64,000 bases of DNA, from assembly GCA_035546535.1 (NCBI GenBank), contig DASZWQ010000083.1, positions 1 to 64,000 of the forward strand. The letters run 5' to 3'. Both the position numbers and the translations under genes were made by a program. This document shows, piece by piece, positions 31,526-59,293 of this stretch (positions are counted from its first letter, which is position 1; each line of letters opens with the position of its first letter). Under the pieces are notes generated by a model, which had not been told where the DNA came from, searched no databases, and was given only the letters and a program-made list of their open reading frames with translations. This DNA is from Pirellulales bacterium. Its GTDB lineage: Bacteria; Planctomycetota; Planctomycetia; Pirellulales; JACPPG01.

Positions 31526-32125
31526 TCAAAACTTCTGCCGGCCCGAAAGCGCGTCCGCCAAAATCTCCTTGTTAGCAAATTCTAGCACGCTGCCCGTCGT
31601 GATCCCCCGGGCCAGCTTCGTGATTTCCACGCCATACTCGGCCAGGCGGTTGGAAATCAACAGCGCCGTCCCGTCTCCTTCCAGCGTGGGATTGGTTCCC
31701 ATGATGACCTCGCGAAACGCTCCCGTTCGGACCCTTTCGACCAGTGCGTCGATCGTCAGTTGATCAGGTCCGACGCCCTCCAGTGGCGCCACGCGCCCCA
31801 AAAGCACGTGATACAACCCGCGATAGGCTCCTGCTTGTTCGAGGGCCATCAAATCGCGCGGTTGCTCGACCACGCACAACTGCTTTTGATCGCGGCGCGG
31901 ATCACGGCAGATCTCGCACAGGTCTCCCTCGGCCAGATTATAGCAAACCTTGCAGTAGTGGACGTTTTCCTTGACATTCCGAATCGCATCGGCCAATCCC
32001 AATGCTTCCGACTTGCTCACTCGCAGCACGTGGTAGGTCAGTCGCTCCGCGGTCTTCTTGCCGATTCCCGGCAAGCGCGAGAACTCCTGCACCAGCCGGC
32101 TCACCGATTCCGTCAATTGCGGCAC
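31526..32125 (-). CDS. recR: Recombination protein RecR
   Basis: A 199-residue protein that with RecF/RecO loads RecA at gaps. The HhH segment (FSRLPGIGKKTAERLTYHVL), the C4 zinc finger (CKVCYNLAEGDLCEIC) and the Toprim domain (VVEQPRDLMALEQAGAYRGL) are all present. The start is GTG at 32125 with GAGGAA about 9 nt upstream. It lies 89 bp downstream of ybaB in the classical dnaX-ybaB-recR order. Confidence 0.97.
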   Translation of the reverse strand: MPQLTESVSRLVQEFSRLPGIGKKTAERLTYHVLRVSKSEALGLADAIRNVKENVHYCKVCYNLAEGDLCEICRDPRRDQKQLCVVEQPRDLMALEQAGAYRGLYHVLLGRVAPLEGVGPDQLTIDALVERVRTGAFREVIMGTNPTLEGDGTALLISNRLAEYGVEITKLARGITTGSVLEFANKEILADALSGRQKF

Positions 32126-32214
32126 GTAGACGCTTCCTCACTCACCGCGCTCGTCGGAGCGCCGTGTCAAAGTGGCATTTCCTTGGGGTGCGCCAAAGGC
32201 GCGATCATCGAACG

Positions 32215-32580
32215 TTATCCGTTTGCTGCTCCGCCCCCCGTCAACTTCGCCAGCGCCTCGTTAAGCCCCGGCAGGTCGGCGCCCCCCATCAATTCCTTCA
32301 TGGCGTCCGCATGAAACTGGCGCGCTTTTGCGATCGCGTCGTTCGTGGCGCCGCGCACCAGATCTTCGATCAGCTCGCGATCGCCCTGGGCGAACAGCCC
32401 CGGATCGATCCGACAGGCGAGGACCTCTTGCAGGCCATTGACCTCGACTTCCACCAGCCCGCCACCGGCGCTGCCATTGGCGCGCTTCGCGCGCAGTGTC
32501 TCATTCAAGCCTTCGAGCCTGCCGCCGATCTGCTGGGCCTGGCGAATCATCGACGCCAGGTTGCCAAGTTGGCCGAACAC
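32215..32580 (-). CDS. ybaB: YbaB/EbfC family nucleoid-associated protein
   Basis: A 121-residue DNA-binding protein. The start is the GTG at 32580: a GGAGG SD sits 9 nt upstream, and the protein then begins VFGQLGNLASMIRQAQQIGG, matching the family N-terminus. A longer frame from an ATG at 32631 overlaps the dnaX stop region and adds unrelated residues. The core shows GGGLVEVEVNGLQEVLACRI and ends with a Gly-rich tail. It follows dnaX by 57 bp. Confidence 0.95.
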   Translation of the reverse strand: MFGQLGNLASMIRQAQQIGGRLEGLNETLRAKRANGSAGGGLVEVEVNGLQEVLACRIDPGLFAQGDRELIEDLVRGATNDAIAKARQFHADAMKELMGGADLPGLNEALAKLTGGGAANG

Positions 32581-32637
32581 GTGATTCTCCCTCCGCGGTA
32601 GCGCCCATTGGTGTGCTTCGTGTACGACCATAACGCT

Positions 32638-34479
32638 CTAGACGTTCCGGTCGTCGACCCGCAGCGGCCGCGCTTCGAACAGCTCGATCGCGCGGCTAAC
32701 CATCGGATGCTTGGCCTTCTCGCGAACCCGATCGCGCCCCTGAGGCGGCCGGGCCGCGGTGGTCGTCGTCGGGCCAGCCGACTGCTCCAGCACGAAGCTG
32801 ACGCGCATCGGTTGTCCGGCGACCTCCGCCAGCGCCCGCTCGATTTTTTCGAGCTGATCGGTCTTCTCGCAGAAGGCTTTGGCCAAATTATACTTCTTGG
32901 CAAAGGTAACGACCAGCAAGTTTGGCGCAGAAATTGCTACATGACCGGCCTGATTCGCGTAGTCGGCCGCCATCCCCTGCAAACGCGCCAAGGTCTGCTG
33001 CCAAAGACGCGGGGCATCGGCCGGTTGCAACGAGGAAGGTTGCGAAGAATTGAGCGTTGGGGCGGGCGTCTCGTCGGAAAGATTGACCGACGCTACTTCA
33101 CCGTTTTTTTTTACCTCGTTTTGCGTCGCCGATTCACTCGGTTCTGCCCGAGAGGCGGGTCTCGCAGCGGCAGTGGTCGATGAGCTGACCTGCCTCACCG
33201 GTTGCGCGGCCGGCGCCGGCGCGCGCTGCACAACGGGGCGGCTCACCGCGTCGTTTGACGGCGTGACGTCCGTTCCCGATTTGATTTGTTGAATCAGCGC
33301 TGGCAATTCTTCCAGGTCGGCAAGTTGGCAGATTCTAACGAGTGCCAGTTCCGCCAATACCCTGCCCTGCGTGCTATAGCGTAACCTGGCGAGCGTGTGG
33401 TCCAGCACCTGCATTGCGGCCAGCACGGTTTGCAGGCCCAGTTGCTGCGCCTGTTCGGCGGCCAGTTTTTGCAGCGCTGGATCCGATTGCAGCAGGATTT
33501 CGCCCGAGCCGCCCACGGCGGCCACCATCAAATCGCGAAAATACACGAGCAATTGGTCGAGCAATTGCCCGCTATCGACACCCGATGAAGCGGCGGCATC
33601 GAGTTCGGCAATGGCCGCCGCGGCGTCGCGCGCCACCAGGTGTCCAGCCATCCGCGACAGGCGCTCGTCAGACGCGGTACCGAGCAAATGATTCACATCG
33701 TCGACCGTGATTTCGCGCCCCCCAACCGCCAACAATTGCTCCAAGAGCGATTGGCTGTCGCGCATCGAACCGCCGGCCCGCCGCGACAGCAGCACGAGCG
33801 CTTGCGGATCGGCTTCGACCCCTTCGGCCGCCACGATCTGCCGCAGCCGATCGACGATCGAACCGGCCTGGATGCCGGCGAAATCAAATCGCTGGCAGCG
33901 CGACAGGATCGTTACCGGGATCTTCTCGGCCTCGGTCGTGCAGAAGATGAACTTCACGTGCTCAGGCGGCTCTTCCAGCGTCTTCAGCAAGGCGTTGAAT
34001 GCCTCGCGCGTGAGCATGTGGACTTCGTCGATGATGTAGATCTTGAAGCGCGACCGGCTGGGGCGAATCGCCACGTTGTGCCGCAGCTCGCGCATCTCTT
34101 CGATGCCGCGATTGCTGGCGCCGTCGATTTCCAGCACGTCGACGTCATCGCCGGCCGCGATGCTCAAGCAGCTATCGCAGCGGTCGCAAGGGACCGGCGC
34201 CGGCCCCTCTTGGCAATTCAGACATTTGGCCAGAATCCGCGCGGCCGAAGTCTTACCGACACCACGGGCGCCGGTGAACAAATACGCGTGACCGACACGG
34301 TTGCTCGTAATCGCGGCCGTAAGAGCACGGGCGACGTGCTCCTGTCCGACCAGCTCGGCAAAGGTCTGCGGTCGATAACGGCGGGCGACGACGACATATT
34401 CCTTCTTGCCGCCTTCCCGATGAACGCCCCCGGACGGACTGGCGTCGTCGCTGAGACCGGGTAATCCGTCGCTGGCCAT
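32638..34479 (-). CDS. dnaX: DNA polymerase III subunits tau/gamma
   Basis: A 613-residue clamp-loader ATPase. Residues 28-250 are the AAA+ core: Walker A GARGVGKTS at 70-78, a zinc module with CNCQ, CDRCDSC (about 87-104), Walker B IIDEVHML and sensor 1 IFCTTEAEKI. Domain III runs to about residue 400, followed by an Ala/Pro/Ser-rich linker and the tau-specific C-terminal domain (about 500-600). In the linker, codons 456-459 read GTA AAA AAA AAC, a run of nine A. A -1 slip leads to Lys-Arg then TGA, giving a 460-residue gamma form. The SRP RNA gene lies just upstream, ybaB and recR downstream. Confidence 0.96.
   Translation of the reverse strand: MASDGLPGLSDDASPSGGVHREGGKKEYVVVARRYRPQTFAELVGQEHVARALTAAITSNRVGHAYLFTGARGVGKTSAARILAKCLNCQEGPAPVPCDRCDSCLSIAAGDDVDVLEIDGASNRGIEEMRELRHNVAIRPSRSRFKIYIIDEVHMLTREAFNALLKTLEEPPEHVKFIFCTTEAEKIPVTILSRCQRFDFAGIQAGSIVDRLRQIVAAEGVEADPQALVLLSRRAGGSMRDSQSLLEQLLAVGGREITVDDVNHLLGTASDERLSRMAGHLVARDAAAAIAELDAAASSGVDSGQLLDQLLVYFRDLMVAAVGGSGEILLQSDPALQKLAAEQAQQLGLQTVLAAMQVLDHTLARLRYSTQGRVLAELALVRICQLADLEELPALIQQIKSGTDVTPSNDAVSRPVVQRAPAPAAQPVRQVSSSTTAAARPASRAEPSESATQNEVKKNGEVASVNLSDETPAPTLNSSQPSSLQPADAPRLWQQTLARLQGMAADYANQAGHVAISAPNLLVVTFAKKYNLAKAFCEKTDQLEKIERALAEVAGQPMRVSFVLEQSAGPTTTTAARPPQGRDRVREKAKHPMVSRAIELFEARPLRVDDRNV
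33072..33117 (-). other. Candidate dnaX frameshift/slippage cassette (SD-like, A9, stop, hairpin)
   Basis: Reading the minus strand: GAGGT (33117-33113) resembles an SD; nine A (33112-33104) contain the slippery A-AAA-AAA; the -1 frame stop TGA is at 33100-33098; a hairpin CGTCGG-N9-CCGACG spans 33092-33072, 11 nt after the run. The same ingredients act in E. coli dnaX, and A9 runs cause transcriptional slippage in Thermus dnaX. Efficiency here is unknown. Confidence 0.75.
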
Positions 34480-34547
34480 GGGAAAAGCGCCTCCTTGGTC
34501 CGCTTCGCGGCATCGAGCCCTCGGGCCGCAAAAAACTGGCGACCGGT

Positions 34548-34636
34548 GAGAGACCCCCGCACAAAGAGCTGACTGCTTATGGCTGCTGGATTTCTCCCCT
34601 GACCAGGTTCACAGCGCCCCATTGCGGGGGCCTCTC
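34548..34636 (-). ncRNA. ffs: Signal recognition particle RNA (small bacterial type)
   Basis: About 89 nt. The ends pair as GAGAGGCCCCCGC (34636-34624) with GCGGGGGTCTCTC (34560-34548). The apical part reads GAACCTGGTCAGG, then GGA-GAAA-TCC with a GNRA tetraloop, then AGCAGCC, the conserved helix 8 of SRP RNA that binds Ffh. Position directly upstream of dnaX is common in bacteria. A short T run (TTTTTT, about 34531-34536) follows on the minus strand. Confidence 0.93.
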
Positions 34637-34832
34637 ATCGGCAGCCAGAATGCCGCCGCGCCGAGCGACACTACTTTTTACGCTGCCCGAGCCGGTCCGT
34701 CAAAGCCTCGCGAAAAGAGCCCCACCCCGCCACTTGACGGCGACGCGAACCCGGCTGCGCGCTCCTTTCCCGATTTCGCGCGTCCGGCCGCGTCGCGCCC
34801 GAACAAACGGACTTCGTTGGCACACCCCGCGT

Positions 34833-59094: not shown

Positions 59095-59293
59095 GGCCCC
59101 GAAGGGGCCTAGTCGTGTAGCCGTGGGCGCAAGCCCACGGTACTAATTCGCAATGAGATTCGTCGTAAGCCCTGAAGGGGCGACATACGACAAACCTGAA
59201 ATCGATGTCGCCCCTCCGGGGCTTGCAGGGCGCTACGAGACGTTTACCCGTGGGCTTGCGCCCACGGCTACACGATTTCGCCCCTGCGGGGCT
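59095..59293. repeat. REP-like cluster of palindromes
   Basis: Several hairpins sit between the phosphoesterase-like gene and topA. GGCCCC-gaa-GGGGCC is at 59095-59109. CCGTGGGC-gcaa-GCCCACGG is at 59121-59140 with flank GTGTAG. An inverted copy CCGTGGGC-ttgc-GCCCACGG with flank CTACAC is at 59248-59272. GCCCC-tgc-GGGGC is at 59280-59292. The outer copies are mirror images, so the whole is a composite inverted repeat of about 160 bp, typical of REP/BIME elements. Confidence 0.8.

Follow-up and report, generated by a model that had tools for sequence, protein, structure and literature searches.

The dnaX gene of this Pirellulales bacterium probably contains a programmed slippage site of the Thermus type, through which one gene would yield both tau (613 aa) and gamma (~460 aa). 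Comparison of dnaX sequences across the order leads us to place the probability of this reading at roughly 0.78. The window, which is the whole stretch of 64,000 nucleotides analysed, carries the gene, the run and the two shifted-frame stops as follows.

32638–34479, minus strand: dnaX, an open reading frame with the 0-frame product tau (613 aa), matching TIGR02397 dnaX_nterm (439.8 bits), PF13177, PF22608 and PF12169
33104–33112, minus strand: the A9 slippery run, in codons 456–459 (GTA AAA AAA AAC)
33098–33100, minus strand: TGA, the -1 frame stop (mRNA with one added A), predicted to end a gamma of 460 aa with KKKR
33093–33095, minus strand: TAG, the +1 frame stop (mRNA lacking one A or carrying two extra)

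Domain III (PF12169, ending at residue 398) precedes the run, and the conserved C-terminal region follows it. The surrounding sequence reads ...AACGAGGT-AAAAAAAAA-CGGTGAAGTAGCGTCGGTCAATCTTTCCGACG..., and the minus strand at the run reads ...GAGGT AAAAAAAAA CGGTGAAGTAGCGTCGG.... Both shifted frames close within a few codons of the A9, the TGA coming 4 nt and the TAG 9 nt after the run. The -1 frame reads AAA CGG TGA, giving ...EVKKKR and a stop, while loss of one A gives a +1 frame product of ~461 aa ending ...EVKKTVK. The initial annotation had placed the run (33112–33104), its codons, the -1 TGA and the 460-residue product exactly so; the +1 stop went unmentioned there.

That annotation also counted the run among the longest homopolymers of the window, and it is in fact the sole homopolymer of at least 8 in the 64 kb. 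The whole 6.36-Mb genome contains 11 separate A/T tracts of at least 9. No other tract was placed within a domain that Pfam recognises. One is located ahead of the conserved domain of an undecaprenyl diphosphate synthase, and several are covered by long open reading frames that lack any Pfam match. One A9 (L325), close to a gene like arfB, was considered as a further in-gene run and rejected, as it starts at the TAA stop codon of that gene and is outside the coding sequence. Among all A/T runs in the genome a T13 (L330 3192–3204, contig C98) is the longest. The open reading frame over it is without a Pfam match, and a gene for tRNA-Arg lies within ~10 kb of it on that contig.

In the proposed mechanism, RNA polymerase would slip on the A9 run to produce mRNAs with 8, 9, 10 or more A. 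Messages with 9 A (or 9 ± 3n) would encode full-length tau, including the C-terminal region past the run. All other lengths would lead into one of the two quickly closed frames and yield a gamma of ~460 residues whose C-terminus falls in the linker that follows domain III. A further amount of gamma could come from ribosomes slipping by -1 at these codons. We infer that slippage takes place, mostly at the level of transcription, and yields a stable and functional gamma.

To place the run in a wider context, we searched genomes of the genus and of the order for dnaX. Some match was present in 392 of 397 order genomes, counting weaker hits to other AAA+ proteins. From stretches of the best-matching genomes and further loci came a sample of 152 different dnaX genes of the order, and in 127 of these the interdomain linker holds an A run of exactly 9 or 10; the genes are related, and these counts are not independent events. 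In a list of 161 loci, which takes in duplicates and a few other planctomycetes, the site is A9 in 96, A10 in 38 and A6 in 2, and no A7, A8 or A11 occurs there. Interruption of the run in close relatives would have spoken against the initial annotation; in the two genus mates whose gene was recovered, an A9 or A10 is retained. Outside the order, A9 or A10 with close -1 stops is found in the majority of the other class members examined (among L239–L259), and the run is absent from most of the phylum's more distant families. Where homologues keep a run of nine A constant in length, purposeful slippage is very likely its function (PMC1088944).

The context of the run is far less constant than the run itself. 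The flanking DNA diverges freely between genes, and the base that follows (n = 127) is C in 84, G in 32 and T in 11. The codon phase of A9 is 2 in 63 cases, 1 in 23 and 0 in 5, and that of A10 is 2 in 22, 1 in 13 and 0 in 1. Upstream of the run, lysine codons in the same genes are AAG 779 times and AAA 448 times, and the other A runs there reach 6 at most. Because flanks and phase vary, and because AAG is preferred and yet does not break the run, the conserved entity is evidently the DNA run and not the peptide. The presence of A9 or A10 in the same linker of so many genes likewise means that the run is evidently not due to chance. It could still be proposed that the run is retained for a Lys-Lys peptide or arose by chance, with tau as the sole product, and the otherwise low-complexity, tolerant linker and the 25 genes that manage without a run are in keeping with such a view. 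The variable phase and flanking residues, the avoidance of AAG within the run and the rarity of A/T tracts in the genome all oppose it, as do the stops described below, and we regard it as highly improbable.

These stops are strongly enriched directly after the run in both shifted frames. Among the 125 genes with enough sequence, a -1 frame stop occurs within 8 codons of the run in 116 (93%) and a +1 frame stop in 89 (71%), at median distances of 2 and 5 codons respectively. When the order of the downstream codons was shuffled, the corresponding values were 23% and 19%, and when synonymous codons were resampled they were 27% and 25%. The maxima over 40 control replicates were 42 and 39, against the observed 116 and 89, and at comparable places in runless genes stops occur in 13% (-1) and 10% (+1). 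Base composition is an unlikely cause of the enrichment, since G+C directly after the run (0.63) is near that of the rest of the linker (0.66). Both shifted frames appear to be selected for closure. Despite the kinship of the genes, the stops have evidently been kept or remade many times, because the flanks have diverged enough. One sister (L084) has a +1 frame that remains open over ~50 codons.

Homopolymers are hypermutable (PMC1088944), and both A9 and A10 are found in the order, so the run might be thought a phase-variable contingency tract, in which slippage during DNA replication turns tau on and off in subpopulations. However, nearly all genes examined have the C-terminal part in frame, with a 0-frame stop at the run in a single genome (G368, locus L334), and the shutting off of an essential replication subunit is implausible. 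This explanation is scarcely credible, the least so of those considered.

In E. coli, dnaX uses programmed -1 ribosomal frameshifting at A_AAA_AAG, with stimulators. The initial annotation had pointed to two elements of the window dnaX as signals of this kind, and both are present where it placed them.

33113–33117, minus strand: GAGGT, abutting the run; not a conserved SD-like stimulator
33072–33092, minus strand: CGTCGG/CCGACG hairpin (33092–33087 pairing with 33077–33072), 11 nt after the run; not conserved and probably incidental

Neither element is borne out as a signal. GAGGT directly abuts the run, and SD-like cores within 22 nt upstream occur in 20% of genes and 12% of control windows, a marginal difference that provides no conserved SD. 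Folding after the run is no stronger than in controls (mean z -0.07 compared with -0.19, 126 genes), so that no conserved hairpin is found. The fold of the window hairpin has a z of -1.3, and the nearest sister (L083) lacks such a stem and has a z of +1.1. Both elements in the window therefore look incidental. What stands of the initial interpretation is the production of tau and gamma by programmed slippage, for which the conservation across the order and the stop enrichment are strong support; the E. coli-like accessory signals are unsupported.

The main competitor to transcriptional slippage is a programmed -1 ribosomal frameshift of the E. coli type, acting on A_AAA_AAA or A_AAA_AAC with an SD and a hairpin, the run merely containing the heptamer. 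A_AAA_AAA is indeed included in every A9 whatever its phase, the -1 stop is nearer to the run than the +1 stop, and GAGGT and a 6-bp hairpin do exist in the window. However, a heptamer of 7 nt would be enough for ribosomes, and yet lengths of 7 and 8 are missing, leaving just 9 and 10. Pressure would also be expected on the -1 frame alone, whereas the +1 frame too is closed beyond controls, and neither SD nor hairpin is conserved in the order. The strong E. coli site A_AAA_AAG is not used. In the window the run is followed by C (AAA AAA AAC), and whichever base follows it in the 127 genes does so after 9–10 A. Finally, the same genome encodes two lysine tRNAs, with anticodons TTT and CTT (UUU and CUU), the second of which counts against this reading. 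Possession of two tRNA-Lys has been given as a possible reason for polymerase slippage in Thermus, whereas E. coli with its single tRNA-Lys uses ribosomes (PMC5009743). The data favour transcriptional slippage, because of the restriction to lengths 9 and 10, the closure of both frames, the lack of a conserved SD or hairpin and the two tRNA-Lys, and the ribosomal alternative appears unlikely, if more deserving of attention than the other two. The tighter closure of the -1 frame leaves room for a ribosomal share and counts against pure polymerase slippage. It would be compatible either with one-base insertion being the commonest event or with added ribosomal slippage, two situations that look the same in sequence.

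The arrangement most closely resembles that of Thermus thermophilus, in which dnaX undergoes transcriptional slippage at A9 (Larsen et al. 2000, via PMC3711429, PMC1088944, PMC5009743). Both have an A9 in the sense strand of dnaX, a tau read in the 0 frame, stops close by in the two shifted frames and two lysine tRNAs. Here, however, the phylum is another one, and the run is A9 or A10 in varying codon phase. With E. coli the gene, the linker position and a predicted -1 shift leading almost at once to a stop and a truncated gamma are shared; the differences are the absence of A_AAA_AAG and of a conserved SD or hairpin, the closure of both frames, and two tRNA-Lys instead of one. In Caulobacter gamma arises by proteolysis of tau (PMC5009743), which gives the same pair of end products at the protein level, where a conserved run and stops are unnecessary. 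The GeneTack survey describes two-ORF dnaX genes, for example in Chlorobium and Chloroherpeton, with poly-A of 7–10 (PMC3711429); the window and almost all of its relatives, by contrast, have tau as the 0-frame product. Planctomycetes are not named in the dnaX section of that survey (PMC3711429), and no report of planctomycete dnaX slippage was found in the literature searched, most subscription literature being outside the search. The mechanism is thus known from Thermus, and the planctomycete case appears to be new and has clear comparative support.

The exceptions within the order are also informative. With 25 of the 152 genes lacking the run, gamma made by slippage on it cannot be essential to every member of the order. 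On a tree of the N-terminal regions of DnaX, built quickly with FastTree and with the linker left out, the fewest changes required are 18 for the state of the run and 22 for its length (A9 or A10). One clade of four, all of genus g16 (L147, L159, L166 and L167), is entirely runless, and related genera keep the run. Some runless genes (such as L107 and L225) contain C6–C7 runs, which are possible replacement slippery sites and are not shared.

In G368 (L175/L334) the layout is reversed, as in the two-ORF genes of the GeneTack survey. The 0-frame stop falls right after an A10 (L334 1503–1512), and one added A joins both halves into a single alignment over query residues 26–610. Here tau itself should need slippage, through a -1 shift, or the stop may be an assembly error. 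Seven distant planctomycetes (G588, G405, G460, G480, G465, G495 and G544) have one in-frame stop inside the dnaX match, and these are either further two-ORF dnaX genes or assembly errors. It may be that dnaX slippage is old in the class, has been gained and lost many times in the order, and was inverted in one lineage so that tau became the slippage product; we consider the odds on this history to be even.

The reason why bacteria make gamma is a matter of long debate, and studies cover few dnaX genes. In this order most genomes bear the run, a minority of genes lack it and at least 18 changes of state have occurred, which would allow clamp loaders with and without slippage-made gamma to be compared directly. 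If the history of an old site, often gained and lost and once inverted, is true, the order amounts to a natural experiment on the purpose of gamma. The runless g16 clade would be useful for asking what replaces gamma. DnaX annotations of the group probably list no more than one of the gene's two products.

Other features of the window were noted in passing. An Acido-Lenti-1 RNA (RF01687, 45.6 bits, gathering threshold 37), a member of an RNA family of unknown function, lies at 59248–59293 on the plus strand. A bacterial small SRP RNA (RF00169, 63.9 bits) is found at 34542–34639 on the minus strand, 62 nt upstream of the dnaX start and on the same strand as the gene. Downstream of dnaX, again on the same strand, YbaB/EbfC (PF02575) and RecR are encoded at 31526–32631 (minus). 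The order dnaX-ybaB-recR is a familiar one, and relatives of recR are present in most of the longer dnaX loci of the order.
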